A DNA stretch of 59,376 nucleotides, from assembly GCA_903862245.1 (NCBI GenBank), contig CAIOXL010000096.1:1-59376 (forward strand). The letters run 5' to 3'. This DNA comes from an uncultured Geobacteraceae bacterium (GTDB lineage Bacteria; Desulfobacterota; Desulfuromonadia; Geobacterales; Pseudopelobacteraceae). Under the pieces are notes generated by a model. It was given only the letters and a program-made list of their open reading frames with translations, was not told the DNA's origin and made no database searches. Of this stretch, positions 119 through 14,295 are shown in pieces; positions within the stretch are counted from its first letter, which is position 1, and every line of letters starts with the position of its first letter. A program made the translations under genes and the position numbers.

Positions 119-1144
119 ATGCTGAAGAGAATTTTATTGTTGGCCTGTGCACTATGCATGTTTTCTGTCGTCTGCGCCGGAGCGGCCGAAACCAAGGACA
201 TCAAGTTCAACTTTAAAAATGCCGATTCTGTTGTATTCAGCCACGATTTTCACCTGAAAAAGTATAACAACAATTGCAAGATATGCCATGATGCCATCTA
301 CAACCTGAGAAATAAAAAACGCTCCACCATGGCAGAAATGGAAAAAACCAAGTCCTGCGGTGCATGCCATAGCGGGGTTAAAGCGTTCAGTGTCGCCAGC
401 GAGACGGACTGTTCCCGCTGCCACGTCGGTAAACCGCGTGATATTGCCTATGCCGTAAAAGGCCTCGGCACCACCCAGTTCAGCCATTCACTGCATATCG
501 CTAAAACGGGGGGCGCCTGCAAAGGGTGCCACAACGGCAAAGTCATCACCGGTAAGGATAAAGCGGTGACCATGGCGGAAATGGAAAAAGGGCGCACCTG
601 CGGCGCCTGCCACAATGGCAAACGCACATTTGCCGTTACGGCAAACTGTGACCGCTGTCACAAGGGGCTTAAACCGGCAGAGGTTACCTTTGCCCTGAAA
701 GGGATAGCATCTGCGACCTTCAGCCACGCAATCCATACCCAGGCTTACAGCTGCAAAGAGTGCCATACTAAAATATTCCCGTTCAAATCAGTCGTCGGCA
801 AAAGCACCATGGATGATATGGAGAAGGGTAAATCCTGCGGCGTCTGCCATAACGGCAAGGATGCCTTTGCATCTACCGGCGATTGCGCCAAATGCCACAA
901 AGGGCTGAAACCGGGCAAGATTCTTTTCAACACATCGGCTGGTGAGGCCGCGTTCAGCCACGAGTTCCATCTCCAGTCATACAAATGCGCCGATTGCCAT
1001 ACAAAAATATTCCCCTACAAAGCCGGCGCCCTGAAAGCAACCATGGCCCAGATGGAGGCGGGAAAATCATGCGGTACCTGTCACAACAAGGGAAAAGATG
1101 CGTTCCCGGTGCAGGATGATTGCAGCAAGTGTCATAAAATGTAG
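119..1144 (+). CDS. Dodecahaem c7-type cytochrome (four tandem trihaem units)
   Basis: A 341-residue exported cytochrome. A cleavable signal peptide ends near residue 23 (VCAGAAE). The mature part is four repeats of about 75-80 residues, each with an FSHxxH-like distal histidine motif and three CxxCH haem sites, 12 in all (for example CKICH, CGACH, CSRCH in unit 1). The order is constant: site 1, a conserved segment like STMAEMEK, site 2 (CGxCH), site 3. This is the layout of the 'nanowire' c7 proteins of Geobacter built from four trihaem domains. The likely role is periplasmic electron transfer or storage. The start is the ATG at 119, because GGAG at 107-110 lies 8 bases upstream; an in-frame TTG at 98 would be an alternative. 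The gene stands alone and is followed by a terminator. Confidence 0.9.
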   Translation: MLKRILLLACALCMFSVVCAGAAETKDIKFNFKNADSVVFSHDFHLKKYNNNCKICHDAIYNLRNKKRSTMAEMEKTKSCGACHSGVKAFSVASETDCSRCHVGKPRDIAYAVKGLGTTQFSHSLHIAKTGGACKGCHNGKVITGKDKAVTMAEMEKGRTCGACHNGKRTFAVTANCDRCHKGLKPAEVTFALKGIASATFSHAIHTQAYSCKECHTKIFPFKSVVGKSTMDDMEKGKSCGVCHNGKDAFASTGDCAKCHKGLKPGKILFNTSAGEAAFSHEFHLQSYKCADCHTKIFPYKAGALKATMAQMEAGKSCGTCHNKGKDAFPVQDDCSKCHKM

Positions 1145-1188
1145 AATCCACCAGGCACGCAGTATTCTGCCCGGATAGTTGCAGATAC

Positions 1189-1228
1189 AAAAAAGGGGAG
1201 CAGACACTAGTCTACTCCTCTTTTTTTG
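1189..1228 (+). terminator. Rho-independent terminator after the dodecahaem cytochrome
   Basis: The left arm AAAAGGGGAGCAGAC (1191-1205) and a right arm starting GTC at 1210 form a stem of about 14 pairs with one mismatch. The loop is ACTA and a run of seven T follows. Confidence 0.85.
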
Positions 1229-1248
1229 TGCGTTGACTGCTCCAGGGA

Positions 1249-1269
1249 GGGGACCGGCAAGCGGTCCCC
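1249..1269. other. GC-rich 8-bp hairpin
   Basis: GGGGACCG (1249-1256) is complementary to CGGTCCCC (1262-1269) with a 5-base loop. No T-run follows, so it is probably not a terminator. It lies between the terminator of the dodecahaem gene and a possible small gene. Its function is unknown. Confidence 0.4.
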
Positions 1270-1394
1270 TGTATACTGTATTCAATTTCGTTGCTATTGT
1301 GAATGGACTTCGTGTATACAACCAATGACTTGGGCATTTCCTCCGTTTGTGCCACACAGTGGGCCGCTGCCGTGCGGCATTGAAGGGCGACACT

Positions 1395-1709
1395 ATGCAG
1401 AAACGCTCGACAGGATGCAGACAATTACTTGTTACGCAGGCGTTATTCATACTCCTGCAGGTAACTCTTGCTCTACAACACCATCAGCATTTCTCGTCAG
1501 ATCACAGCGTTAAAGACGCGCTACACTCCTTCCCCTCAATATTTCAGCTTGATCTTGGCAAACAGGATGCCCTGGCTTTTTTCCCTGCGGACTTCCTGTT
1601 ATCCCCCCCTCCATCGTTATTTACCCGTAACCGGGAAAGCGCTCAAACCCCGGTCACGGTTCTTATCACGGACCCCCCCCAGAGCCGGGCACCGCCAGCG
1701 GTCACCTGA
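1395..1709 (+). CDS. Possible small exported protein, unrecognised
   Basis: An open frame of 104 residues in an otherwise empty 656-base gap (1145-1800). It starts MQKRSTGCRQLLVTQ, followed by a hydrophobic stretch that could be a signal peptide or anchor, then LQHHQHFSSDH and a proline-rich tail ending PPQSRAPPAVT. A basic N-terminus, hydrophobic core, histidine cluster and proline-rich tail recall small proteins found beside metal-efflux genes, but I cannot assign a family. GAAGGG at 1382-1387 is a weak ribosome site. The other overlapping frames here look like noise, and this one may be too. The rest of the gap holds hairpins and no recognisable gene. Confidence 0.3.
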   Translation: MQKRSTGCRQLLVTQALFILLQVTLALQHHQHFSSDHSVKDALHSFPSIFQLDLGKQDALAFFPADFLLSPPPSLFTRNRESAQTPVTVLITDPPQSRAPPAVT

Positions 1710-1800
1710 TCGCTCTGCACCGGCGCATGCATAACAACCTGGACCCGTTTTACGGTTCTGTCTCAGGTTTAAATACAATCAATTCTGGAGGATTTCGTTT

Positions 1801-3684
1801 ATGTCTTCACCCCTTTACCGATTCATCATACTGACGTTCCTGGCAGCCATCTGGGCTTTTCCCGCTCATGCCGAGCAGGGTATGGCCATTGACCCGGCCA
1901 CCTGCCTCGGGTGCCACAGCAACAAAATGTCCATCCATGATTTTGCCGCGTCTGTCCATGGCAAAAATGCCTGCACCAGCTGCCATGTGGACATCGTTGA
2001 TCTTGCCAAGCACATGCGAAAAGAGATCAAGGTCCAAAAGGTTCAGTGCGAGCGGTGCCACAAAAAACAGAACTCAGAACATTATGCCAGTGTGCATGCC
2101 GAGAAAGGAGTCACCTGCGCCCAGTGCCATACGGATATCCATACCCATAATTACTGGAAAAATGACAAGCGCATTGCGGTCGCCAAGTGTGTCCAGTGCC
2201 ACGACAAGGAAGCGGTCTACCGGAAGTCGGTTCACGGCAAGGGTGTTGCCGCCGGCAACATGGATTCGGCCGCCTGTCACGACTGTCATAACCTCCATGC
2301 CATTGACAAGCTGGCCGGCGCAAAGGATCACAAGGGGCGGGAGTTCCATACCAAAGTCTGCCTGAAGTGCCATAGTGATGAAAAACTGATGGCCAAGAAC
2401 AAGGTCACCAACGTGGCGGTCAAATCCTACATGGAGAGCTACCACGGCAAAAACTACCGTCTCGGCTTCCCGGACAAGGTCGCCGGCTGTGCAGACTGCC
2501 ACACCGCACACTCGGTTCTGCCGAAAGCCGATCCCCAGTCCAGCATCAACCCCGCCAATATGGTGAAGCAGTGCACGCCGTGCCACCCCAGGGCGACACC
2601 GCTCTTCGCCCAGTATTATGCCCATGGCGAGATGACGGACCGCCATAATTATCCGATTCTGTACTACACGTTTGTCGCCATGACCGGCCTGCTTGTTTCC
2701 ACATTTGCTGTTTTCTGGATCCACACGCTGCTCTGGATGTTCCGCGGCTTTGTTGAAAACCGGGAGAAGGCTGACCATCTTGCCGCCGGCCTGCACGAGC
2801 ACGTTACTCCCGCAGGCACCCATCATCACGTTGTTCCCGATGCGCATAAACAGTACCGGCGCTTCAACCGGGTGCACATCTTCATGCACCTGCTCGTTAT
2901 CACCAGCTTCCTGATACTTTCAATAACCGGCCTGCCGCTGAAGTTCTGCACCCAGGCATGGGCAATAGCACTTATGAAGGTATACGGCGGTGCAGCGAAT
3001 GCCGCTCTGCTGCATCGCGTCGGTGCCGCAATCACATTCGTCTATTTCGGTATGGCTCTTGCCATGAGCATCAACTTCCTTTTCATCAGAAAGGATATCA
3101 AGGGGAATCCACTGCAGCGCCTCTTTGGCCCGGATTCACTCTGCTTCAATCTGCGAGATATCAAGGACGTGTTCTTCATGGTTAGATGGTTCCTCTTCAA
3201 AGGACCGAAACCGACTTTTGAGCGTTGGACCTACTGGGAAAAATTTGACTTCGTTGCCGTCTTCTGGGGTATGTTCGCCATCGGCGGCTCCGGCCTGATG
3301 CTCTGGTTCCCCGAATTTTTCGGTCTGTTCCTGCCGGGGTGGGCGTTTAACGTCGCCACCATCGTACACTCCGACGAAGCGCTTCTGGCCACCGGCTTCA
3401 TCTTCTCGGTGCACTTCTTCAACACCCACGGCCGCCCCGAGAAGTTCCCCATGGACTTCGTCATCTTCAACGGTCAGATCGGCAAGGAAGAGATGATTGA
3501 AGAACGTGGTGACCAGTGGAAGCGCTATGAAGAAGAGGGCATCACTGAAACATTCGCCTGCAAAAAAACCAGTGGTGTCGTGTATGACTTCCTCTTGAAA
3601 GGGTTCGGCTTCACCGCCCTCTTAATCGGCATCGGCCTGTTGCTGCTGATGATCCTGGCCCTCCTGGGAGGCGGCGGGCACTGA
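1801..3684 (+). CDS. cbcL: CbcL-like nine-haem cytochrome c fused to dihaem cytochrome b
   Basis: A 627-residue inner-membrane protein. A signal sequence (to about residue 24) is followed by a periplasmic region with nine CxxCH sites (CLGCH at 35-39, then CTSCH, CERCH, CAQCH, CVQCH, CHDCH, CLKCH, CADCH, CTPCH). A membrane half follows from about residue 285, with several helices and histidines in the style of HydC/FdnI cytochrome b, for example the segment HIFMHLLVITSF. This c-then-b fusion with nine c haems matches CbcL of Geobacter sulfurreducens, a menaquinol oxidase needed for electron transfer to low-potential acceptors. Orthology is inferred from domain layout. GGAGG lies about 12 bases before the ATG. 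The gene is monocistronic, with two terminators after it. Confidence 0.75.
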   Translation: MSSPLYRFIILTFLAAIWAFPAHAEQGMAIDPATCLGCHSNKMSIHDFAASVHGKNACTSCHVDIVDLAKHMRKEIKVQKVQCERCHKKQNSEHYASVHAEKGVTCAQCHTDIHTHNYWKNDKRIAVAKCVQCHDKEAVYRKSVHGKGVAAGNMDSAACHDCHNLHAIDKLAGAKDHKGREFHTKVCLKCHSDEKLMAKNKVTNVAVKSYMESYHGKNYRLGFPDKVAGCADCHTAHSVLPKADPQSSINPANMVKQCTPCHPRATPLFAQYYAHGEMTDRHNYPILYYTFVAMTGLLVSTFAVFWIHTLLWMFRGFVENREKADHLAAGLHEHVTPAGTHHHVVPDAHKQYRRFNRVHIFMHLLVITSFLILSITGLPLKFCTQAWAIALMKVYGGAANAALLHRVGAAITFVYFGMALAMSINFLFIRKDIKGNPLQRLFGPDSLCFNLRDIKDVFFMVRWFLFKGPKPTFERWTYWEKFDFVAVFWGMFAIGGSGLMLWFPEFFGLFLPGWAFNVATIVHSDEALLATGFIFSVHFFNTHGRPEKFPMDFVIFNGQIGKEEMIEERGDQWKRYEEEGITETFACKKTSGVVYDFLLKGFGFTALLIGIGLLLLMILALLGGGGH

Positions 3685-3700
3685 TCCGTTTGACTGAATA

Positions 3701-3727
3701 GAGAGAGGGGGTTCTCCCCCCTCTCTG
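3701..3727 (+). terminator. Strong hairpin after the CbcL-like gene
   Basis: GAGAGAGGGGG pairs with CCCCCCTCTC around the loop TTCT. There is no T-run directly after it. It is the first of two stacked hairpins. Confidence 0.6.
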
Positions 3728-3740
3728 CACTCCATGAACA

Positions 3741-3776
3741 AAAAAAGGATGCCGGTATGCGGCATCCTTTTTTTGT
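3741..3776. terminator. Bidirectional terminator
   Basis: AAAAAAGGATGCCG (3741-3754) pairs perfectly with CGGCATCCTTTTTT (3760-3773). The A-run and T-run let it stop transcription from both sides. It serves the CbcL-like gene on the plus strand and probably the converging operon that ends at 3952. The bases 3777-3951 show nothing convincing. Confidence 0.85.
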
Positions 3777-3951
3777 GAACCATACTAACTGGCTTTTTTT
3801 CCTGAAGGTTCTCTTCTCATTTAAGATTTTATACTGTGACCTCTGTACCTTGGTGAACAGCTTGCAAAAGTTGCGTTCTCAGGACAGCACGCTTTTTCCG
3901 CTCACAACCTTTTCGGCTGAACCTCCCAGATCCTGCATTTCCGGCACCGTA

Positions 3952-5775
3952 CTACTCGTTCTCTTCCACATCGTTGTCTGCTTTTGGCAATTGCTTCTGC
4001 CATTTACTCAGGGCAATTGACTCGATAGCTGCTGCCGTTCCGAAGGAGAAAATACTGAACACCAGCGGCAGCCCGTGGATGCCGAGCAGATCGTACAGAA
4101 ATACTTTTACAGCACCGACGACCGTGACCAGAACAGCGACATTGCGCAGTTCCTTGTCCCGCCGCAGGTAGGCAATCACGATAAGGACGATGACTGCACC
4201 GTTGATTAGCACCGACTGGCCTGAGCTGAAGGTATCCCGCTGCAGCTGTTGCGGGATATACTGCAGTGCCTGGGCAAGCCCGATCCTTACCATGAAGAAC
4301 CCGCTGGCCAGTCCGCCCAGCAACAGCAGGGCTGCACTCCGGTCATTGCGGTCAAAGGTGTCAAAAAGGGCTGATTTCTCCGGGGCGGGCCACCACCGGC
4401 ACCACTGGTAATGATACATCGAGATGAACGCCAGAAGCCCGGCGGGCAGCATATTAAGCGGGTCCGTCGCTCCCGGACCGTCTCCGCGCAGCATCAGCGC
4501 AAGTGCTGTACAGGCGTAAATATTCATCAGGTAGGAAGTCGCCCGCAAGCCGCCGTTCTCCCAAACGCGGGATATGATCGCCATGGTAATGGCCACCAGC
4601 GAAACCACCGGCAGCGAGATGGTATATGCACCGGTTGCCGCCGGCAGGGCCAGGGCAAGGAGCGCCCCCCCGGCAAAAGCAAAGGTGTTGGTACCGGGTG
4701 ATCCCTCAACGCCGCGGCGTGCACACCAGAACGTCATGCACAGGAGTACCACGGCACCAATCAACCCGATAACACCGAGAAGCTTCACATTCATCTGCGC
4801 TGCTCCGGCCACGTGGTTGGCGAGGGTAAAGGCCCAAAGGACGTTGAGGGTCGGCAGACTGAAGTCAAACCGTGATATTTTCCGGTCGCCGCCGCTGATG
4901 ATGCCAAACAGCGACAGAACGATAAAGCAGAGGAAGAACAGTGCCAGAACCGGAAGGAACCAGGTGACCGCAAGTTCAGGCGGGACCGCTTCTCCTTTGG
5001 GCAGCAGAATGGCCAACCTGAGGCCCCACATCTGCAGCATGAGCATCGTAACGATCAGCACCGACCAGCGGAGCCAGGAGCAGCGTTTCAATTGGGCCGC
5101 AAAGTAACCAAGCACGTTGGCGGTGAACAGCACCAGAGAGAGGTAGGGGAAGAACGGATGCGGATAATCAATCGCCGCACCGGCAAAGCACATGCCGAGC
5201 ACCCCGACCGAAATAGGGACAAACGCGTTGAAGCGGCGGCTCATGATGGCCATGGCGAAACCGGTTGCCATCAGCGTCAGATAGGCCGGCACCAGCGGAA
5301 GCGATTTGAAATGGGCATGTGTTTCCACCACTATCGAGGACATAAGCACAACGCCGCAGGCCGCAAATACCGGGGCCAGCGGACTTTCCTTGGCATACTT
5401 GTACCAGGCGAAGATCATCAGCGCCGCTGCGTATCCCATACCGATGCCTGAACCGGGCAGTTTCCCGACGAGACCGCTGTCGGTGATGGTGCGGAGGATG
5501 AGCGCAATGACCATGAGGAAGCAGACTGTGGCAAGACGCGGCAGAACCGCATTCCTGGTGGCCCAGCCGAGCACCTCTTCCGAAAGTTCGGGCATCTCCT
5601 CTTCAGCATAGACCTTGGCACGAGACGGCTCTGGCTTGGGAGCCGCTTCTGCGGCCGGAGGGACTGGCTCATCGCTGATGCGCGAACTGAGCCGGTCCAG
5701 CTGCCGTTCCAGCATTTGTATCCGGTTAGCAAGTTCCTTTTCCCGATCCTCAAGAGTATGGTCTTCCGTCGACAT
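3952..5775 (-). CDS. Polytopic membrane protein (DUF2339-like), last gene of the Cbc-type operon
   Basis: A 607-residue protein. Residues 1-45 are charged and predicted coiled coil (DREKELANRIQMLERQ), followed by a Pro/Glu/Ala linker. About 18 or more hydrophobic helices then run to the end, finishing in a short acidic tail (DNDVEENE). The layout resembles DUF2339 membrane proteins, whose function is not known. No haem, Fe-S or nucleotide motif is visible. It follows the second NrfD gene by about 100 bases, with a hairpin between, so it may be read at reduced level. AAGGAGG precedes the ATG at 5775. The family assignment rests on general architecture only. Confidence 0.65.
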   Translation of the reverse strand: MSTEDHTLEDREKELANRIQMLERQLDRLSSRISDEPVPPAAEAAPKPEPSRAKVYAEEEMPELSEEVLGWATRNAVLPRLATVCFLMVIALILRTITDSGLVGKLPGSGIGMGYAAALMIFAWYKYAKESPLAPVFAACGVVLMSSIVVETHAHFKSLPLVPAYLTLMATGFAMAIMSRRFNAFVPISVGVLGMCFAGAAIDYPHPFFPYLSLVLFTANVLGYFAAQLKRCSWLRWSVLIVTMLMLQMWGLRLAILLPKGEAVPPELAVTWFLPVLALFFLCFIVLSLFGIISGGDRKISRFDFSLPTLNVLWAFTLANHVAGAAQMNVKLLGVIGLIGAVVLLCMTFWCARRGVEGSPGTNTFAFAGGALLALALPAATGAYTISLPVVSLVAITMAIISRVWENGGLRATSYLMNIYACTALALMLRGDGPGATDPLNMLPAGLLAFISMYHYQWCRWWPAPEKSALFDTFDRNDRSAALLLLGGLASGFFMVRIGLAQALQYIPQQLQRDTFSSGQSVLINGAVIVLIVIAYLRRDKELRNVAVLVTVVGAVKVFLYDLLGIHGLPLVFSIFSFGTAAAIESIALSKWQKQLPKADNDVEENE

Positions 5776-5795
5776 GTGCGAACCTCCTTACATTA

Positions 5796-5821
5796 AAGGC
5801 CGGCTTTTTACAGCCGGCCTT
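5796..5821 (-). terminator. Intergenic hairpin inside the Cbc-type operon
   Basis: AAGGCCGGCT and AGCCGGCCTT form a perfect 10-bp stem with a 6-base loop. On the minus strand it is followed only by TTTAAT, so it may act as a partial terminator or RNA stabiliser between the NrfD gene and the DUF2339-like gene. Confidence 0.55.
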
Positions 5822-5873
5822 CTACCCGTGTTCCTGAAGTTACGTGTATCTCCGCGTGGTTGCGGGGTGCAAC

Positions 5874-7169
5874 TCAGTGCGTTGACTCTTCCTTGAGGAA
5901 AGCCGGAAGAAACTTGTTGATGAAATAGAAGAGTATAAATGGCGTCGCGATTACCGCCAGGGCTCCGCCCAGACCCTCTTTGAATGTCTCAATGCTGTGA
6001 GGGATTATGGGGAGATGGTAATCCATGAACCCGGCAAAACTGAGTGAGAATGCCTGGCCGCCGATAACGACATTGTAACGCATCATGAAAACGCCGAACA
6101 AAACCAGAACCGTGGCGATCGTAGTGCGGCGCACGGTACGACCCGGCAGCGCCATCATCAGGAACGGCAGCACATTGCCAATTCCGTACTGCATGACAAA
6201 TATTTTCACGAAGTCACGCTCCATGATGACCTCGCGCAGGATGTCCCACGATTTGACCTGGGTATAACCGCGGAAGATCAGGTCGAGGATTTCCAGGGTC
6301 AGAGCCGCCATCATGAAATAGAGCAGGTAGTTGGAGGAGAGCATGACCTCCATATGCTTAGCACCTTCAAGCTCCTCCACAGTCGGTGCGTCGCTGTCGT
6401 TAGCCCAGCGTGCCAGTTTCCGCTTGGCCAGGAATTTACGGAACTCCTGAACCACCACGTAGCAGAGAATGCAGAGTGCCACCCCGGAGACAACCGCAGA
6501 GCAGATGAAAATAACCGGCATGAGCGGCGTCATCCAGAGTGCGTTCGCCTTGACCGAACCGAAGATGAAGCCGGCATAGCCGTGGAGAAAGCAGGCTACC
6601 GGAATACCGATACCAGCCATGATCTTGCACGCCTTGTGATCTTTTTCAATGGCTTCATGACTTATATCCCACGCCCCGAGGGTCAGGGCCGTAAACACCA
6701 GGCGGCGGAATTTGTCGACCAGGCCGGGGTTCTGCTTGGCTTTCAGTTCAAGTGCTGACTGGACAAAATGCTTGCGGTAAACCAGCCAGAGTTCGGTCGC
6801 CACAATGCAGGCGTAGGTGCTGAAAACGATGCCGAAGGCGGCGATTGCCGAGGTAAAATGGGGCGTCATCATGACATGTATGCCGCGCAGCGGTTGCTGC
6901 AGGTGCATCATCAGCGGCATCATGGCGACCGGAAGCAGGGCAAAGGAGAAAACCAGCGAAAATCGAGCAATTTCTTTTAGTTTTTCCACCCCGAAGACAT
7001 GATAGAGGGACGAAAGAACGAACGCCCCGGCCACCAGGCCGGTCATAAACGGGTACATGACGATCTGGATTGACCAGTAGATGTATTCGTTCGGCAGGGT
7101 GAACAGTTCTTTGATTGTCCAGGCTTCCCCATGGACTTCCATAACGTGTTGTGCGATTTGCTCTACCAT
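5874..7169 (-). CDS. NrfD/PsrC-family quinone-binding membrane subunit, second module
   Basis: A 431-residue integral membrane protein with about ten helices, typical of the NrfD/PsrC/HybB family. These subunits bind quinone in the inner membrane and exchange electrons with a ferredoxin subunit. The family assignment comes from helix pattern and context: the gene starts 2 bases after the four-cluster ferredoxin and has AGGAGG upstream of its ATG. It is unlike the first NrfD of this operon in detail (HGYAGFIFGSVKANALW against HTVTAFLYNGLGARPFW), but the position of this central segment is shared. Probably part of a Cbc-type menaquinol:cytochrome c oxidoreductase. Confidence 0.85.
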   Translation of the reverse strand: MVEQIAQHVMEVHGEAWTIKELFTLPNEYIYWSIQIVMYPFMTGLVAGAFVLSSLYHVFGVEKLKEIARFSLVFSFALLPVAMMPLMMHLQQPLRGIHVMMTPHFTSAIAAFGIVFSTYACIVATELWLVYRKHFVQSALELKAKQNPGLVDKFRRLVFTALTLGAWDISHEAIEKDHKACKIMAGIGIPVACFLHGYAGFIFGSVKANALWMTPLMPVIFICSAVVSGVALCILCYVVVQEFRKFLAKRKLARWANDSDAPTVEELEGAKHMEVMLSSNYLLYFMMAALTLEILDLIFRGYTQVKSWDILREVIMERDFVKIFVMQYGIGNVLPFLMMALPGRTVRRTTIATVLVLFGVFMMRYNVVIGGQAFSLSFAGFMDYHLPIIPHSIETFKEGLGGALAVIATPFILFYFINKFLPAFLKEESTH

Positions 7170-7171
7170 GA

Positions 7172-7945
7172 CTAACGCACCTCCTGGGCAAGGCCGATAT
7201 AAAACGCCTGGGGCTTGGTTCCAAACTCATCCTTGAGAACCCCGACCCGCTCGTTCATGATGATCTGGGTAATCGGGTCGTTGGGGTCGTGAATGTTACC
7301 CATTCTGCGTGCACCGAAGGGGCAGGCATTGACACAGGCCGACTGAAGCCCTTTGCTGAGACGGTGGTAGCAGAAGGTGCATTTGTCGGCAACCTTCAGC
7401 ACCGGATGGAAGAAGCGGGCCGCGTAAGGACAGGCCATAATGCAGTAACCACACCCGATGCACCATTTTCGGTCGACGAGGACAACGCCGTCATCGGTCT
7501 TGTAGGTTGCTCCGACCGGGCAGACCTGGGTACAGGGTGGTGTTGTACAGTGATTGCAGAGCTTCGGCACAAAGAACGCTTTGCCGACGTTCTTGGGATC
7601 AATTTCCTTGAATTCCCCTTTGCCAAGGTCGATGCGCGACTCGGTAAAACCATTAAGCGCACCCTTGGGGCTGTCCACATACCTGCGGTCATCCTTGGTG
7701 TACACGTACCGCTCCACCCAAGTCCGGGTTACGTTGGCGTCCAGAGGGATATCATTCTCGGTTTTGCACGCCTTGACGCAGAAACCGCAGCCGGCGCACT
7801 TGTTGGTATCTACCAGAAAAGCCCACTGGATGTCGGGGTTGGCCGCCAGAACCTTTCTGGGGTCTACCAGCGTCAGGGCCGAAAGCGGTACTGAAGCGCC
7901 CGCAACGACCATTACACATTTTTTAAGAAAGTCACGTCGATCCAT
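7172..7945 (-). CDS. Tat-exported four-cluster ferredoxin subunit, second module
   Basis: A 257-residue protein starting MDRRDFLKKC, a twin-arginine signal, so it acts on the periplasmic face. It has four cysteine groups for [4Fe-4S] clusters: CAGCGFCVKAC, CNHCTTPPCTQVC, CIGCGYCIMAC and a final group CTFC...C...C. This is the NrfC/PsrB/DsrO type, which passes electrons between an NrfD-type quinone site and cytochromes. I chose the ATG at 7945 over an in-frame codon at 7996 because the Tat motif follows it directly, GGAGG lies just upstream, and it overlaps the TAA of the preceding cytochrome gene by one base (TAATG). Confidence 0.9.
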   Translation of the reverse strand: MDRRDFLKKCVMVVAGASVPLSALTLVDPRKVLAANPDIQWAFLVDTNKCAGCGFCVKACKTENDIPLDANVTRTWVERYVYTKDDRRYVDSPKGALNGFTESRIDLGKGEFKEIDPKNVGKAFFVPKLCNHCTTPPCTQVCPVGATYKTDDGVVLVDRKWCIGCGYCIMACPYAARFFHPVLKVADKCTFCYHRLSKGLQSACVNACPFGARRMGNIHDPNDPITQIIMNERVGVLKDEFGTKPQAFYIGLAQEVR

Positions 7946-8433
7946 TATTTCATATCCTCCAGTTTCGGATTGTGTGGGTTGTGGCATTTGACGCACTGCT
8001 CACCCGGGTTATGCCCCTTTGGATCAATGCCGGGGATACGTTTACGTTCACTCGTCGTATAGGGGAGGTTCGTATGGCACCTCAGACAGAGTTCCCGACT
8101 CCGGTCAATGTTCAGTTTTTCAGGCGCTTCCGGATGGTTCATAGCCGGCCCGTGGCAATCTTCACAGGGGATTATGCCGTGAAAATTTTCCGAGCGTACT
8201 TTTACCACCGCGCCGTGGCAGGCACTGCAGTACTCGTGCATTCTTTCACGACCTGTGGTGCCGTATTTTGCCGGCTGCTCTTTCCACTCCGCCTCATTGG
8301 ACAGGCGGTGGAAGGAATACATGAACCCTCGTTTTCCGGAACCGAAATCATGGGGCACGTAGAAAAAACGGAATACCAGTAACCCAACGACTAATGCAAT
8401 GACCACGTACAGCGGCCGCCAGACATGACTTTT
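7945..8433 (-). CDS. Membrane-anchored tetrahaem cytochrome c, second module
   Basis: A 162-residue protein with one N-terminal helix (YVVIALVVGLLVFRFF) that is probably uncleaved, then four CxxCH sites: CSACH, CEDCH, CLRCH, CVKCH. I prefer the GTG at 8433 (VKSHVWRP...), because AAGGAG lies 5 bases upstream and the alternative ATG at 8481 would place coding sequence inside a perfect hairpin. It is likely the cytochrome of the second cytochrome-ferredoxin-NrfD module and hands electrons to periplasmic carriers such as the PpcA-like protein. Its stop overlaps the start of the ferredoxin gene. Confidence 0.85.
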   Translation of the reverse strand, partial: KSHVWRPLYVVIALVVGLLVFRFFYVPHDFGSGKRGFMYSFHRLSNEAEWKEQPAKYGTTGRERMHEYCSACHGAVVKVRSENFHGIIPCEDCHGPAMNHPEAPEKLNIDRSRELCLRCHTNLPYTTSERKRIPGIDPKGHNPGEQCVKCHNPHNPKLEDMK

Positions 8434-8471
8434 CACTCTCTCTCCTTTTTGACGCATGATGTGTAACAGGC

Positions 8472-8507
8472 CATTGGCCAAACCTCATCCTTGGGGCTTG
8501 GCCAATG
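8472..8507 (-). other. Perfect 10-bp inverted repeat between the two redox modules
   Basis: CATTGGCCAA (8472-8481) and TTGGCCAATG (8498-8507) enclose 16 bases. It sits between the first NrfD gene and the second tetrahaem gene. There is no T-run, so it is more likely an RNA processing or stability element than a terminator. Confidence 0.5.
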
Positions 8508-8538
8508 CGAAATGACGGGACTACTTTGTCTATCAGGC

Positions 8539-9846
8539 TCAGTCGGCGTACTCATCTCCGAAATCCACCGGTTTGGCGACGTCTTCAGGCCCCTGTTGAA
8601 CCAGGAACAACTGGTCACCGATGAAAGAACCGACACCATCATCAGCGACATGAAAGTCGCCGTTCAATATGGGGATTGCCACCCTCAGCAGCATGGTGAA
8701 CACAAAAAGTCCGGTGGCCCAGATGCCCATGGAGATCAGCAGTTCAACCCCTGTCGGTGAGTACTCGTAGATTTCATGCAGTACATCCGGAATAAATCCC
8801 GGAATAACCAACCCCATCCCCTTCTCGATATATACCCCGACAAAAACCAGAATACAGGCGATCATCAGGGTCACATTATTCCTGCGTGTGTCGGGGACCA
8901 GAAAGAGGAAAAAGGCGGTGATATTAAAAACCATCGCCGTCCAGATCCAGGGGACGAGCGCCGAATGGCCGTGCAGTCCCTGGAAAAGGTATTGCACCGG
9001 CGCCAGGTGGGCCGAAGCTGTGTAATATTCCTTGAACAGTTCTGCCCCCAGCAGGAGCAGGTTGACAAACATCGCATAGGCAATCAGCTCGGCCACCTTC
9101 TGGATGGCTTTGTCGTCAATCCGGAACTTGGTGTATTTACGCACCAGAAAAAAGATGATGATCATGAAGGCCGGCCCGGAACAGAAGGCTGAAGCAAGAA
9201 AACGGGGTACCAGAATCGAGGAGTTCCAGAACGGCCGCGCGCCGAGACCGTTGTAAAGGAAAGCGGTCACCGTGTGGATGGAGATCGCAGACGGAATCGA
9301 CAGCAGCAGCAGCGGCGTGGTGAAACTCTTATTCGGTGTACGTTTGTAATACAGGCTGTACAGGATGTAGACCGCTATTGTCAGGTTGAGAGCAAGATAG
9401 GTGTTAAGCACCACCACATCCCACGCCAGCAGTGACTGGGGGAAATTAAGCCGTCCGATCTTGGGGATCAGATGCCAGAAACGTTCCGGATGGCCGAGAT
9501 CCGCCGTCACGAAAAGCAGACACATGACGATCGCCGACACCGCCAGCAGCTCGCCAAGCACGGCAATCTCCTTGATCGGTTTCCAATGGTACACGTAGGC
9601 AGGAATAACCAGCAGTACCGCAGCAGCAGCCACCCCCACCAGAAAGGTAAAGTTGGAAATATAAAAGCCCCAGGAGACCTGATCCCGCATGCTGGTAATG
9701 ATCAGCCCTTCATTCATCTGCTGAACATAGGCCGTGGCACCGATTGCCATCAGGGTCAGCAGGATGAGGACCCAGCCGTAGTAGGCCTTACTCCCCTTGG
9801 AGACCAGCACCAGGGTGCCCGTAAAAAAATGCCAGATATTTTTCAT
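8539..9846 (-). CDS. NrfD/PsrC-family quinone-binding membrane subunit, first module
   Basis: A 435-residue polytopic membrane protein of the NrfD family with about ten helices. It has a typical loop at about residues 110-120 (FVTADLGHPERFWHL), as seen in DsrP/HmeB/PsrC relatives, and a hydrophilic C-terminal tail of about 35 residues. It is the quinone-reactive partner of the ferredoxin encoded just upstream (20 bases). GGGAG precedes the ATG at 9846. Together with its neighbours it forms a cytochrome-ferredoxin-NrfD module that is repeated downstream. Confidence 0.88.
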   Translation of the reverse strand: MKNIWHFFTGTLVLVSKGSKAYYGWVLILLTLMAIGATAYVQQMNEGLIITSMRDQVSWGFYISNFTFLVGVAAAAVLLVIPAYVYHWKPIKEIAVLGELLAVSAIVMCLLFVTADLGHPERFWHLIPKIGRLNFPQSLLAWDVVVLNTYLALNLTIAVYILYSLYYKRTPNKSFTTPLLLLSIPSAISIHTVTAFLYNGLGARPFWNSSILVPRFLASAFCSGPAFMIIIFFLVRKYTKFRIDDKAIQKVAELIAYAMFVNLLLLGAELFKEYYTASAHLAPVQYLFQGLHGHSALVPWIWTAMVFNITAFFLFLVPDTRRNNVTLMIACILVFVGVYIEKGMGLVIPGFIPDVLHEIYEYSPTGVELLISMGIWATGLFVFTMLLRVAIPILNGDFHVADDGVGSFIGDQLFLVQQGPEDVAKPVDFGDEYAD

Positions 9847-9866
9847 TGTCGCTCCCTGCGGACGAG

Positions 9867-10793
9867 TTACGTCGCGTAGAAGTAGAAGAACTTAGGTTGC
9901 GTATTAAGTTCTTCCTTGAAGATAAAGACCCGCTTGTTTTCAATCAGGTAGCGGATTTCACTCTCCGGATCAAGCAGGTTGCCGAACTTGCGGGCTCCGA
10001 CCGGGCAGATTTCCTCGCATGCCGGGTAGCGGCCCGGTTGCTCCCTGGTCCGCTGAATACAGAAGGTGCATTTTTCCACCACTCCCTTGGGACGGGGGCG
10101 GTTACCCAGATAGTGGGTGTTTGTATTGACATCCTTAGCCGGAAGCCCCGGCTTGCCCCAGTTGAAGTGGCGGGCACCGTACGGGCAGGCCGCCATGCAG
10201 TAACGACAGCCGATACACCAGTTGTAATCGACAACGACAATCCCGTCATTTTCTTTCCAGGTGGCCTGCACCGGGCAGACTTTAGTGCAGGGAGGCTTCT
10301 CGCACTGCTGGCACTGAACCGGCATGTAGAAATGCCCTTTTTCCGGGACCGTGGCCGGATTGTAGTAATGTTCCGCGTGGGAGAGGTCAACGCCTTTTTC
10401 CTTGTCAAGCTGCATAACCCTGATCCAGTGAATCTGAGGATCACGCGACTGGTTGTTCTCCCCCACACAGGCGTACACGCAGCGTCGGCAACCAATGCAG
10501 CGCGAGAGATCGAGGCCGTATCCATATTTAACCCCCTCGATCGGCGGAGTCGCCTTAACGTTGACCTGTTTGCCGAACTGCTGGCTGTATTTTTTTTCCA
10601 GGCGGGTAATGACCTGCTTGAGCTCATCCTTGGAGAGCTCCCGGAAGTGCTTCTGGAAGAACTCCTCCCAGACCGAGGCTGACGCCTCTTTGCCGGGCAG
10701 CGCTATGAGGCCGATACCGGCAGCCAGGCTCTTTAATACCTTGCGGCGTGACTTGTGCAGGACGTGATTATCGCATTTGCTGTTATCTGACAT
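9867..10793 (-). CDS. Tat-exported four-cluster ferredoxin subunit, first module
   Basis: A 308-residue protein with a twin-arginine signal (HKSRRKVLKSLAAG) at about residues 13-26. Four [4Fe-4S] groups follow: CIGCRRCVYAC, CQQCEKPPCTKVC, CIGCRYCMAAC and CTFC...CEEIC. A segment of about 60 residues between the signal and the first cluster (EEFFQKHFRELSKDE) is absent from the second module's ferredoxin. The likely role is electron transfer between the NrfD quinone site and the tetrahaem cytochrome encoded 31 bases upstream. Confidence 0.9.
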   Translation of the reverse strand: MSDNSKCDNHVLHKSRRKVLKSLAAGIGLIALPGKEASASVWEEFFQKHFRELSKDELKQVITRLEKKYSQQFGKQVNVKATPPIEGVKYGYGLDLSRCIGCRRCVYACVGENNQSRDPQIHWIRVMQLDKEKGVDLSHAEHYYNPATVPEKGHFYMPVQCQQCEKPPCTKVCPVQATWKENDGIVVVDYNWCIGCRYCMAACPYGARHFNWGKPGLPAKDVNTNTHYLGNRPRPKGVVEKCTFCIQRTREQPGRYPACEEICPVGARKFGNLLDPESEIRYLIENKRVFIFKEELNTQPKFFYFYAT

Positions 10794-10824
10794 GTGGCAA
10801 GGCTCCTGGTGCGTAAAGATACGG

Positions 10825-11436
10825 TCAGTGGCGTATGCTGCCCGGACGTTCCGGCGGCGACAGCGGCTTTAGTGGTTTGAACTTCGGATCATGGGGATTG
10901 TGGCAGTGGACACAGAGCAGATACTGTTTGTCTCCGTTCCAGTTGCCGGTCCGTTTGCCGTGGACGCCGACCTTCCAGTCGCGGAACTTGTCGCCGTGAC
11001 ACTGACCGCACAAGCGGTAAGACTCGGAAAAATCGATCAATTCCCCGGAAACAAGCCGCAGTTTGTCACGGTTCAACAGGTTATGACAATCCGTGCACCA
11101 GCGCTGACCTTCGGCATGGTGCAGCACAATCTCCTCATGATAGTCGGTCAGAACCCGCTGTTTCGGATTCGGCTTGATGTATGAGTGACACTGGGAGCAA
11201 GGAAAAACCCCTTCAGAAAACGGGGGGCGCGGCACCGGATATATTTTTTCCGGCTGCTTGTTTTTTATGTTGTATGTGGGCAACTGTTCAGCACCCGTTT
11301 TTTCCACAACAACAAGCTTCCCTGAACGGTCGAATTCCTTGACCCTGGCAGCCTCACTCCGGGCGGCAGACAGACACTGCACCGAAAGCAGGGCAACGAG
11401 AACCAGCATGGGACGAGCTAAGCTCCGTGTTTTCAT
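10825..11436 (-). CDS. Periplasmic tetrahaem cytochrome c, first gene of the Cbc-type operon
   Basis: A 203-residue protein with an N-terminal signal (MKTRSLARPMLVLVALLS, cleavage near SEA) and four CxxCH sites: CSQCH, CTDCH, CGQCH, CVHCH. I place the start at the ATG at 11436, with GAGG upstream, rather than at an in-frame codon at 11490. This is the leading gene of the minus-strand operon and the cytochrome of its first module. The last site, CVHCHNPHDPKFKPL, resembles CVKCHNPHNPKLEDM at the end of the second module's cytochrome, which supports common ancestry. Confidence 0.88.
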   Translation of the reverse strand: MKTRSLARPMLVLVALLSVQCLSAARSEAARVKEFDRSGKLVVVEKTGAEQLPTYNIKNKQPEKIYPVPRPPFSEGVFPCSQCHSYIKPNPKQRVLTDYHEEIVLHHAEGQRWCTDCHNLLNRDKLRLVSGELIDFSESYRLCGQCHGDKFRDWKVGVHGKRTGNWNGDKQYLLCVHCHNPHDPKFKPLKPLSPPERPGSIRH

Positions 11437-11554
11437 CGCAACCTCAAGATCATTTGATTGGAGTATCGCCAGCAAAAACTTACTGTGCAAAAGCAGACTG
11501 CTGAATATTTGTACGTAATACGATTATCATCTTTTCACCGTAACGACGACAGAA

Positions 11555-11583
11555 GTAATATTAAAACCTCGGCAGCTTGTCAA
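11555..11583 (-). promoter_or_regulatory. Sigma-70-type promoter of the Cbc-type operon
   Basis: On the minus strand, TTGACA (11583-11578), a 17-base spacer and TATTAC (11560-11555). The start codon of the first gene lies about 120 bases downstream. The -35 match and the spacing are perfect. Confidence 0.65.
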
Positions 11584-11655
11584 TAAAAAAACTGTTTTAT
11601 TACATACATTTTTTTTGTTGATCTATAGTGCCACCCCGCCCAGCGACAGTGATAA

Positions 11656-11673
11656 GAAACATTATATTGTTTC
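11656..11673. promoter_or_regulatory. Near-perfect 18-bp palindrome, possible operator
   Basis: GAAACATTATATTGTTTC equals its own complement at 16 of 18 positions. It lies in the 328-base gap between the divergent Cbc-type operon and the trihaem gene at 11765, about 70 bases from the minus-strand -35 box. The regulator is unknown. The rest of the gap is AT-rich and shows nothing else clear. Confidence 0.45.
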
Positions 11674-11764
11674 AAAACAGTTGATTCTTTCCGCAAAAAG
11701 CATTATGACGTGTACTGAAATAGCACAAAGAGCTGTTCGCAGGTCAACTTAATGGAGGTGGTGC

Positions 11765-12082
11765 ATGAACCGTTTGACAGTGGTTATGGTAGCGTTGGCT
11801 GGTGGTCTGCTCGTGAGTAATGCACAGGCAATACAGCCCGGAAAGACGGTTACCTGGGAAACACCCATGGGAAAAGTTGTCTTCGACGGTAAAAACCATA
11901 TGGATGCGGGTGTTAAATGCCTGGAGTGCCACTCGAAGATCTTCAAGATGAAAAAAGGGTCCACCGTAATGAAAATGGCTGATATTACGGCCGGGAAGTA
12001 TTGCGGAAAGTGCCATAACGGTACCAGGGCCTTTTCCGCCAAGGATGCAGATAATTGCAATATTTGCCACAGCAAAAAATAG
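11765..12082 (+). CDS. Single-unit trihaem c7-type cytochrome
   Basis: A 105-residue exported protein with a signal to about residue 22 (VSNAQA) and three CxxCH sites: CLECH, CGKCH, CNICH. Between sites 1 and 2 is a segment (GSTVMKMADITAGKYCGKCH) that matches, in place and type, STMAEMEK...CGACH in each repeat of the dodecahaem cytochrome at the start of the window. It therefore looks like one free unit of that polymer. GGAGG lies 9 bases before the ATG. The gene is 118 bases upstream of the PpcA-like gene, which appears to have its own promoter. Confidence 0.88.
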   Translation: MNRLTVVMVALAGGLLVSNAQAIQPGKTVTWETPMGKVVFDGKNHMDAGVKCLECHSKIFKMKKGSTVMKMADITAGKYCGKCHNGTRAFSAKDADNCNICHSKK

Positions 12083-12123
12083 CTCCGCCCGGTTGCGTTT
12101 TTGCCCACCCTCAAAAAATAGGA

Positions 12124-12153
12124 TTGACATTCTGGGCTGATTTGCTCTATTTA
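12124..12153 (+). promoter_or_regulatory. Promoter of the PpcA-like gene
   Basis: TTGACA, an 18-base spacer and TATTTA. The hexamers and spacing are the same as those found upstream of the ImcH-like gene. Confidence 0.6.
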
Positions 12154-12200
12154 AAATGCCGTTACATTAATTCACACACAAAACAAGAAGGAGTCGAAAC

Positions 12201-12479
12201 ATGAAAAAAACCGTTGTAGCACTGCTTGCCGCTGTCGCTTTCTCAGCAACAGCCTTCGCCGGAGACGTAATTGAGTTTGCCGCACCAAAGATGGGTAAAG
12301 TGACTTTCCCTCACAAAAAACACCAGGGAATGCTGAAAGGCTGTACAAAATGCCATGAGAAAACTCCCGGCAAAATAGAAGGCGGCTTCAGCAAGGATTG
12401 GGCGCATAAAACCTGCAAAGGGTGCCACACTGAAGGCAAAAAAGGGCCGACCGGCTGCAAGGATTGCCACAAGAAGTAA
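12201..12479 (+). CDS. ppcA: PpcA-family trihaem periplasmic cytochrome c7
   Basis: A 92-residue precursor. The signal ends AFA at about residue 20, leaving a mature protein of about 71 residues, the usual size of PpcA. Three sites are present: CTKCH, CKGCH, CKDCH. The segments KVTFPHKKHQ, CHEKTPGKIEGG and the ending CHKK closely follow the Geobacter PpcA family, which shuttles electrons from inner-membrane quinol oxidases to outer-membrane conduits. Which of the PpcA-E paralogues it is cannot be settled from this sequence. GAAGGAG precedes the ATG, and a terminator follows, so the gene is its own unit. Confidence 0.93.
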   Translation: MKKTVVALLAAVAFSATAFAGDVIEFAAPKMGKVTFPHKKHQGMLKGCTKCHEKTPGKIEGGFSKDWAHKTCKGCHTEGKKGPTGCKDCHKK

Positions 12480-12505
12480 CATTCCCGGAATCTGTTCGAC
12501 CGGTA

Positions 12506-12541
12506 AAAAGGGGCGGCGCTATAAGCGGCGCCCCTTTTTCT
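12506..12541 (+). terminator. Terminator after the PpcA-like gene
   Basis: GGGGCGGCGCT and AGCGGCGCCCC form a stem with one mismatch and a short ATA loop, flanked by an A-run and a T-run. Confidence 0.85.
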
Positions 12542-12632
12542 TTTTCCGCTCTATCATCCATCTGAGACACTCCGCATACGTTCCTCTGCCCATGGCAAAA
12601 CCGTTGACTATTCACGGTATACAATATTCTTT

Positions 12633-12662
12633 TTGACAAAAATGCCGGCTTTGGAGTATTTA
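12633..12662 (+). promoter_or_regulatory. Promoter of the ImcH-like gene
   Basis: TTGACA (12633-12638), an 18-base spacer and TATTTA (12657-12662), about 77 bases before the ATG. This mirrors the promoter of the PpcA-like gene. Confidence 0.6.
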
Positions 12663-12738
12663 TGTCGCTTCTTATTCTGTGGGACCCATCTTTTAACGGT
12701 ATCAATCGGGCAACTTTATTTTAGTGTAAGGAGAATTT

Positions 12739-14295
12739 ATGGCCATTCGTAAAACAGCCGGGTACGCCTGGAACCTGATCAGTCTCATCGGGATGCTCCT
12801 GGCGGTAACCGCAGCCGCACTCATCGTCGTATTCTTCGCTTTTGAGGCGATTACCGGCGTTGAGCACGCCTATCTGGGGCTCATGACCTACTTCATGTTC
12901 CCGGGCATGCTGATATTCGGATTGCTGCTGGTCCCGTTCGGGGCCTGGCGGGTACGCAATGAACGGCGGAAATCGGTTATTGAAGGGATGGTGTCACTTG
13001 AGGAGGAGATACCGCAGTTTCCCCGCCTTGACCTGAATATTCCTGCACGGCGGCACATGTTTCTCTTTTTTATCGCTGCAAGCGTGGTGTTCGTTGTTAT
13101 CGTTGCCATCGCCTCCATCAAGGGTTTTGAGTTCACCGAATCCACCACCTTCTGCGGTGAAGTCTGCCATGTGGTAATGGAACCGGAGCACACCGCCTGG
13201 AGCAACTCACCACATGCCAAGGTTAAGTGCGTTGAGTGCCACGTCGGCCCCGGCGCTGCCTGGTATGTAAAAGCTAAAATTTCCGGCATGCGGCAGCTGT
13301 ATGCCGTTGCATTCAAAACCTACCCGGAAACCATTGAAACCCCCATTGACAACCTCCGCCCCGCCCGGGAAACCTGTGAGCATTGTCACTGGCCGGAGAA
13401 GTTTTATGTCGGCCGGCAGAAAATTTTCAACCATTACGCACCGAACGAGGCAAACACACCCCGTCAAATCGACATGCTGATTCATATCGGAGCCAACCCG
13501 GCATCAAAGAACGCCAACGGCATCCATTGGCACATCGGCAAAGAAGTCACCTTCATTGCCCGCGACAAGAAAAGAATTGATATCCCCTATATCGCTGTCA
13601 AGGGTAAGGACGGCAAAGTGACCGAGTTTACAACGTCGGAAAAACCGCTCACCAAAGACGAGATCGAAAAAGGGAACAAACGGCTCATGGACTGCACCGA
13701 CTGCCACAACCGTCCGACCCATATTTATCATTCGCCAGGTGAAGAGATGGACTTGAGCTTTATCTCAAATCGTGTCGACCGGTCGCTGCCGTTTATCAAA
13801 AAAGTTGCCGTCGAAATACTCGAGCGGCCGTATAAAAACAAAGAAGAGGCCTTTGCCTCCATCACCAAAGAGATTCCGGCCTATTACGCCAAGAGTTACC
13901 CTGCCGTTGCGAAGGATAAGGGCGCTGCCATCAACCAGGCCGTCGAACGCGTGAAGGAGATTTACTCGCAGAACTATTTCCCGGCCATGAAAGTAAAGTG
14001 GAGCACCTATCCAAATTACATCGGCCACTTCTACACCCCCGGCTGCTTCCGCTGCCACGACGGCAAGCACAAGTCCGCCGAAGGCAAGGTCATCTCCAAG
14101 GATTGCAAACTCTGCCACGATGTTCTGGGGCAGATTCAGGAGAACATCCCGGCCGGAAAGCGTGTTACCGAATTCGTTCATCCGTTTGACATCGGAAACG
14201 AACTGTATAAAACCAACTGCAGCGACTGCCACTCTGTTGGCGGCCATGATGTCACCGCCGAAGGCAAGGGCAAACAGGTGGAAAAGAAACACTGA
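12739..14295 (+). CDS. imcH: ImcH-like NapC/NirT-family heptahaem inner-membrane cytochrome
   Basis: A 518-residue protein with three hydrophobic helices (about residues 12-36, 46-66 and 106-130), then a periplasmic region with seven haem sites. Site 1 is the unusual CxxxCH form (CGEVCH, residues 139-144); the others are CVECH, CEHCH, CTDCH, CFRCH, CKLCH and CSDCH. Three helices plus seven haems match ImcH of G. sulfurreducens, a quinol oxidase needed for reduction of high-potential acceptors. AAGGAG lies 7 bases before the ATG. The gene stands alone between the ppcA terminator and a bidirectional terminator. Orthology is inferred from architecture. Confidence 0.8.
   Translation: MAIRKTAGYAWNLISLIGMLLAVTAAALIVVFFAFEAITGVEHAYLGLMTYFMFPGMLIFGLLLVPFGAWRVRNERRKSVIEGMVSLEEEIPQFPRLDLNIPARRHMFLFFIAASVVFVVIVAIASIKGFEFTESTTFCGEVCHVVMEPEHTAWSNSPHAKVKCVECHVGPGAAWYVKAKISGMRQLYAVAFKTYPETIETPIDNLRPARETCEHCHWPEKFYVGRQKIFNHYAPNEANTPRQIDMLIHIGANPASKNANGIHWHIGKEVTFIARDKKRIDIPYIAVKGKDGKVTEFTTSEKPLTKDEIEKGNKRLMDCTDCHNRPTHIYHSPGEEMDLSFISNRVDRSLPFIKKVAVEILERPYKNKEEAFASITKEIPAYYAKSYPAVAKDKGAAINQAVERVKEIYSQNYFPAMKVKWSTYPNYIGHFYTPGCFRCHDGKHKSAEGKVISKDCKLCHDVLGQIQENIPAGKRVTEFVHPFDIGNELYKTNCSDCHSVGGHDVTAEGKGKQVEKKH

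Follow-up and report, generated by a model that had tools for sequence, protein, structure and literature searches.

Gene content of the locus

The window analysed here (G000:C96:1-59376) is a 59,376-nucleotide stretch from the 2.92-Mb genome, estimated to be 92.65% complete, of an uncultured Geobacteraceae bacterium, in which positions 119-14295 are filled by 12 annotated genes, among them homologues of the predicted quinol-oxidizing cytochromes ImcH and CbcL. Comparison with related genomes indicates that this block is probably a copy of an old, conserved Desulfuromonadia locus for menaquinol oxidation, which would give electrons alternative routes out of the membrane and into one common pool of periplasmic cytochromes. 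At its core stand cbcL and an ImcH-family gene, with a gene for a DUF2339-like membrane protein and either one or two modules of CbcSTU-like type; here these are joined by genes for a Ppc protein, a trihaem c7 protein and a 12-haem c7 polymer. Its features are as follows (TM, transmembrane; Tat, twin-arginine translocation; Fe-S, iron-sulfur).

119-1144, plus strand: dodecahaem c7-type polymer cytochrome with four trihaem c7 domains (12 CX2CH; TIGR04257, E 2.5e-100; PDB 3ov0)
1801-3684, plus strand: CbcL, nonahaem c / membrane b-type quinol oxidase, predicted (627 amino acids, 9 CX2CH)
3952-5775, minus strand: DUF2339-like polytopic membrane protein (PF10101, E 2.2e-7, below cut-off)
5874-7169, minus strand: NrfD2, membrane subunit of module 2 (PF03916, E 4.1e-35)
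7172-7945, minus strand: FeS2, ferredoxin-type subunit of module 2 (Fer4 domains; Tat-like start MDRRDFLKK read from the sequence)
7945-8481, minus strand: cyt2, membrane-anchored 4-haem c subunit of module 2 (4 CX2CH, one TM-like segment)
8539-9846, minus strand: NrfD1, DsrP-like membrane subunit of module 1 (NF045798, 433.6 bits against a cut-off of 350; PF03916)
9867-10793, minus strand: FeS1, ferredoxin-type subunit of module 1 (domain matches; Tat-like SRRKVLK read from the sequence)
10825-11490, minus strand: cyt1, 4-haem c subunit of module 1 (4 CX2CH)
11491-11764, no strand: intergenic region between the divergent cyt1 and trihaem c7 genes (palindrome GAAACATTATATTGTTTC at 11656-11673)
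11765-12082, plus strand: trihaem c7-type periplasmic cytochrome (PF14522, E 3.2e-18; above the TIGR04257 cut-off)
12201-12479, plus strand: Ppc-family trihaem periplasmic carrier (matches to Ppc, c7 and c3 PDB chains)
12739-14295, plus strand: ImcH, NapC/NirT-type heptahaem quinol dehydrogenase of clade A in our tree (518 amino acids; CX3CH plus 6 CX2CH; 3 TM-like segments)

Motif counts, domain matches and PDB matches agree with the genes and positions named by a first-pass annotation of this DNA, whose list was complete save for the DUF2339-like gene at 3952-5775, and the ImcH-type and CbcL-type identities that it assigned are borne out by published family features. ImcH proteins have been described as 495-519 amino acids long, with three N-terminal TM segments, one CX3CH and six CX2CH (PMC6295460; here and below, papers are cited from the parts available). 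The window protein has 518 residues, the CX3CH at residue 139, six CX2CH and, by simple hydropathy, three TM-like segments. ImcH identity is given as at least 53.6% within the Geobacter group versus 31.5-49% to others (PMC6295460); our ImcH-group matches, all of them relatives rather than the G. sulfurreducens protein itself, are 55-97% identical to the window ImcH, bar one end fragment at 50%, and the closest named record, at 97%, is an uncultured Geobacteraceae metagenome-assembled genome. For CbcL, the reported features are nine CX2CH in the N-terminal half and, in the C-terminal half, six TM helices and three conserved histidines that go with them (PMC6295460). The window CbcL carries its nine CX2CH at residues 35-262 of 627, followed by a part in which eight histidine positions after residue 270 are invariant; both the nine motifs and these histidines recur in 76 of 76 sequences (fetched loci, more than 90% coverage, window included). 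A simple hydropathy cut gives 5 hydrophobic segments for the window protein.

The trihaem protein at 12201-12479, previously called a PpcA carrier, does belong to the Ppc family, but it cannot be assigned to PpcA from its sequence, because several Ppc-type chains score alike (the best 16 of 20 PDB matches, E 1.2e-17 to 8.5e-21, are named PpcA, cytochrome c7 or cytochrome c3) and PpcA to PpcE are not separable by sequence alone, a conserved ppcA neighbourhood being the criterion for orthologues (PMC12977616). Its gene is one of 3 matches in the genome. The best PDB relative of the c7 polymer is 3ov0 (E 3.7e-129), and the genome has another gene of this four-domain trihaem c7 type outside the locus (G000:C23:4114-5022).

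Regulators are absent from the 12 annotated genes, as the first-pass annotation had stated; the small overlapping open reading frames (ORFs) of the gap 1145-1800 lie outside this count. Rfam families at gathering score were found neither in the window nor in six related loci. The palindrome GAAACATTATATTGTTTC is a possible local operator; its pattern occurs once in the whole genome, and among 232 loci it was seen in copies of this site, including that of the 97%-identical relative (L001, L090), and in one unrelated Bacteroidia locus (L069). Both flanks are of housekeeping type, not mobile. Downstream lie trxB and ilvA, as read from translations, and the window begins just before the c7 polymer gene. 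Upstream of the locus in the 97%-identical relative G084, Pfam matches point to aminotransferase V, metallo-beta-lactamase fold, coaBC-type, MotA/TolQ, TonB-C, TolB and OmpA genes, with a DksA-type gene about 8 kb from the locus; DksA-type proteins can regulate.

Conservation of the neighbourhood

Among 112 Geobacterales genomes at least 90% complete, ImcH was matched in 93, CbcL in 103 and both in 91. The two genes lie within 20 kb of each other in 41 of these 91, always with cbcL upstream of imcH on the same strand. By family, linkage was found in 30 of 43 genomes of f1, all four of f2 and 6 of 9 of f3, where 2 more pairs stand 24-27 kb apart; outside family f4, which we infer to be that of G. 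sulfurreducens, the proportion is 40 of 56. What separates cbcL from imcH varies within f1: there may be nothing (gaps of 47-429 bp, ten genomes), DUF2339 alone, a one-module Cbc type with or without DUF2339, or the two-module form seen in the window. In G092 the two genes are 387 bp apart. The full gene set, in which the c7 polymer, two modules, c7 and Ppc genes surround cbcL and imcH, is rarer than the conserved core and was met at only 3 loci, namely the window, G084 and G078.

The neighbourhood extends beyond the order. In 200 genomes of the class, ImcH-family matches were found in 139 and CbcL matches in 165. Outside the order, 34 genomes had coordinates for both among the matches listed; in 21 of them, from 8 families, cbcL is co-oriented with imcH and lies upstream of it at a distance of less than 20 kb, and in 8 of the 21 the genes are separated by 423-632 bp. 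Two of the others show another orientation within 20 kb, two have the genes further apart on one contig and nine have them on different contigs. From 28 such loci that were fetched, mostly picked for near imcH/cbcL pairs, the order cbcL, DUF2339, cbc, imcH family was read in 11. G162 and G164 have the order cbcL, imcH, DUF2339, cbc; in G114 and G144, DUF2339 and cbc are next to imcH and the stretch lacks cbcL; both modules are present in G191, where DUF2339 was not matched; the remaining loci have neither DUF2339 nor cbc between cbcL and imcH. Published tags are compatible with this picture: homologues of ImcH (DESUT3_40090), CbcS (DESUT3_40060) and CbcL (DESUT3_40040) are given for D. versatilis (PMC8465243), and D. 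acetexigens ImcH (TRO80643.1) and CbcL (TRO80642.1) were both significantly expressed on an electrode (PMC12133095), these neighbouring tags and accessions standing without remark on adjacency in the available parts of the two papers.

Two loci outside the order depart from this layout: in L209 and L216 (G180, G181), cbcL is on the strand opposite to a six-haem imcH homologue about 10 kb away, and the DNA between them carries a c7-like gene as well as an Fe-S/NrfD pair of another kind (33-35% and 22% identity).

Alternative Cbc modules and ImcH clades at one locus

Alternative ImcH clades and Cbc modules occupy the locus in sister genomes. The ImcH tree holds a clade A of 45 rows (Shimodaira-Hasegawa-like approximate likelihood ratio test, SH-aLRT, 84) and a clade B of 33 rows (SH-aLRT 98). 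The window protein groups in clade A with f4 genomes (SH-aLRT 84), within a 23-row subclade at SH-aLRT 99; G. sulfurreducens itself was not recognised among the genomes. In f1, both clades precede a convergent trxB, with 16 genomes holding A only, 21 B only and 2 (G079 and G081) both. Tandem imcH pairs were noticed at G081:C19, with one gene of each clade, and at G004:C21, with two genes of one group. Of 98 extracted Geobacterales ImcH sequences, 94 have six CX2CH plus one CX3CH, two have 5+1 and two have 3+1, and six Geobacterales genomes hold a second ImcH homologue at 37-43% identity. Outside the order, ImcH-family matches show 35-43% identity among the matches listed. In seven loci outside the order (L190:4252-4728, likewise L191-L196, with imcH set to plus), the gene after cbcL is an ORF of 395-405 codons that contains eight CX2CH, and part of this ORF matches ImcH at 27-30%.

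Each of the two c/Fe-S/NrfD modules at 5874-11490 is made up of a 4-haem c subunit, an Fe-S protein whose start is Tat-like and an NrfD protein. The first-pass annotation named a two-module Cbc-type operon here; in predicted make-up both modules are closest to CbcSTU and unlike CbcMNOPQR. CbcMNOPQR (Cbc6), with 10-haem and 5-haem c subunits in the table of PMC10989804 versus two of 4 haems here, was set aside as a candidate, as was DsrMKJOP, since the cassette has DsrO/P-like subunits and 4-haem c proteins only, without DsrM, DsrK or a trihaem DsrJ. Other genomes of the window's genus have a one-module Cbc type by imcH. A quickly built NrfD2 tree with 55 rows places the 13 rows of the tandem two-module type, which span f1, f3 and two outside families, on one side of a branch (SH-aLRT 97); G191, whose modules diverge and which a 5-kb rule labelled one-module, stands outside that side. 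When types are split by identity (at least 81% versus below 80%, the partial match G044 being counted as two-module), 76 of 77 genomes have a single NrfD2 and G097 alone has both types. Of the 78 NrfD2 matches, 60 have imcH or cbcL within 12 kb and 3 have one of them within 30 kb; the other 15 are on contigs that carry neither gene.

The DUF2339-like protein scores 30.5 bits against PF10101, for which the gathering cut-off is 33.6 (E 2.2e-7), and is at best a divergent relative of that family. Its predicted model is all helical (predicted local distance difference test, pLDDT, 79.4) and gave no informative fold match in structure comparison. Relatives occur as one copy each in 42 of the 112 Geobacterales genomes, and in all 42 the gene is bound to this locus: 37 copies lie within 12 kb of imcH or cbcL, 2 within 26 kb and 3 at 118-1447 bp from an NrfD2 gene. 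NrfD2 is also present in 40 of the 42 genomes (Fisher p 8e-7, uncorrected for kinship). A tentative extension of these observations is that the DUF2339-like protein may be a dedicated, so far unrecognised membrane part of menaquinol oxidation in extracellular electron transfer, and that the locus may be an exchange site at which quinol dehydrogenases (ImcH clades A and B, the six-haem ImcH homologue, and the one-module and two-module Cbc types) swap while the neighbourhood stays.

Proposed function and alternative explanations

The function proposed for the locus draws on homology and on work with relatives. Briefly, ImcH, CbcL and the two NrfD modules would each oxidize menaquinol in the inner membrane; each enzyme's own c-haems would pass electrons to trihaem carriers such as Ppc and the c7 proteins, which would deliver them to outer-membrane conduits. 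With several exits at one place, the cell could respire acceptors at various potentials and gain differing amounts of energy, as has been described for G. sulfurreducens, where ImcH works above about -0.1 V, CbcL acts under low-potential conditions and both are described as PpcA donors (PMC12307469). The earlier suggestion of several quinol exits beside a Ppc carrier is a fair reading. The gene identities, the conserved neighbourhood, the binding of DUF2339 to the locus and the alternative modules are seen in the sequences themselves; quinol oxidation, the electron order and the potential ranges are predicted, and any part played by the DUF2339-like protein would be hypothetical.

A number of observations weigh against a conserved, functionally joined locus or narrow what it can mean. 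Linkage was found in only 1 of 35 genomes of f4, and the unlinked pairs lie on different contigs in 13 f1, 1 f3 and 25 f4 genomes, or at least 65 kb apart on one contig in 9 f4 genomes; in at least one unlinked f1 genome, G057, imcH is cut by a contig end next to cbcL. Eleven f1 genomes have cbcL without imcH (the G063 match being partial). In G062, G065, G081 and G085 the two-module set is upstream of cbcL and not between cbcL and imcH, so the shared place is the locus and not one particular gap. The imcH place is taken in 26 of the 28 fetched loci outside the order by a six-haem protein (5+1 motifs) that is 34-39% identical to the window ImcH. A 59-row ImcH-family tree, which took in 17 of the 98 Geobacterales sequences, splits these six-haem homologues, with one Acidobacteria-type row, from Geobacterales ImcH and the heptahaem homologues of other groups (99/90), and joint monophyly of the six-haem Desulfuromonadia group and Geobacterales ImcH was rejected by the approximately unbiased (AU) test (p-AU 0.0144; group named post hoc from the tree, branches long, outside sample picked by likeness to the window ImcH). 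The class-wide claim therefore concerns an ImcH-family place and not one orthologue; displacement of ImcH in that place is a lead and not a result, because of the long branches, the post hoc group and the way the outside sample was picked. The Cbc and DUF2339 genes are on the strand opposite to cbcL and imcH. In the gap between ppc and imcH, a stem that resembles a terminator and has a T-rich tail (12515-12532, a consensus match only) would fit separate transcription; for these reasons the locus is probably not one operon. Finally, a search for an MtrB-type porin found none in the genome, which is no test of other conduits.

The first-pass annotation had read the co-location of these genes as a single respiratory island. 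An island peculiar to this lineage, in which unlinked genes were brought together, would agree with the layout in G. sulfurreducens, where we take imcH, cbcL and ppcA to be unlinked, and with the restriction of the complete gene set to the window, G084 and G078, but for the core this reading is largely refuted and now looks highly improbable, given that imcH and cbcL are linked in 41 of 91 Geobacterales genomes and, outside the order, in 21 of 34 with coordinates listed, and that housekeeping genes flank the locus on both sides (trxB and ilvA here; aminotransferase, coaBC-type, tol-pal-type and dksA-type genes in G084). The same comparison goes part of the way towards the refuting result that had been named, the same arrangement in most Geobacterales: imcH and cbcL are linked in most genomes with both genes outside f4, but not in f4, and the full set is rarer. 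It is also unlikely, though less so, that the neighbourhood was kept by chance, inheritance or co-transfer and that its enzymes belong to unrelated routes. Variable gene content and differing strands would accord with this, as does f4, where both genes persist mostly unlinked and linkage is therefore not needed. Against it stand the constant order and orientation of cbcL and imcH (41 of 41 linked Geobacterales genomes, 21 of 23 outside within 20 kb), the locus-bound DUF2339 (42 of 42), both counts being uncorrected for kinship, and the occupation of the locus by alternative modules.

Somewhat more weight, although still on the doubtful side, may be given to the idea that the two-module cassette serves sulfur-compound or other periplasmic respiration of a DsrJOP/Psr-like kind and is a mere neighbour of the exits for extracellular electron transfer. 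NrfD1 exceeds the NCBIfam DsrP cut-off, and both Fe-S subunits match DsrO at 174.1 and 186.5, below its cut-off of 200. The cassette, however, contains neither DsrMK nor a catalytic subunit, its c subunits bind four haems and not three, and by locus tag the D. versatilis CbcS homologue is placed between CbcL and ImcH (PMC8465243). A conserved locus with alternative menaquinol exits remains the most probable account of this gene block.

Comparison with known systems

Among characterised systems, Cbc4 (CbcSTU) shares with each module the 4-haem c subunit, the ferredoxin and the membrane subunit (PMC11434368, PMC10989804); it differs in that the window has two tandem modules, module 1 with a DsrP-like membrane subunit, and in that CbcU is described as a b-type cytochrome in those papers whereas the membrane subunits here match the NrfD family, a comparison made by description only. 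The DsrJOP part of DsrMKJOP is approached by NrfD1 (433.6 versus 350 bits), but its usual partners DsrM and DsrK and the trihaem DsrJ are lacking from the cassette. D. soudanensis, which we take to be G199, has the same order of cbcL, DUF2339, cbc module and imcH-family gene. The differences are that it has a single Cbc module, which is encoded on the imcH strand, and an imcH-family protein with six haem motifs that is 36% identical to the window ImcH; a LuxI/LuxR region has been reported in the vicinity of its ImcH and CbcL homologues DSOUD_0207 and DSOUD_0214 (PMC4914508).

For this metal-respiring group, knowledge of the electron exits comes from G. sulfurreducens, whose genes for them are reportedly unlinked. 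Because a similar neighbourhood is found in many related bacteria, it may be the scattered layout of G. sulfurreducens that is unusual. Should linkage prove to be the older state, species that keep it would be a better place to study the choice among several quinol exits, and the DUF2339-like protein, an uncharacterised membrane protein, would be a candidate partner possibly hidden by the model organism; of interest to specialists are this turning round of the view taken from the model organism, the exchangeable-looking parts of the locus and the DUF2339-like protein tied to it. The ImcH, CbcL and Ppc proteins of the window belong, by published features (PMC6295460), to the same families as those of G. 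sulfurreducens, with the difference that the potential ranges of the latter are known from mutants (PMC12307469).

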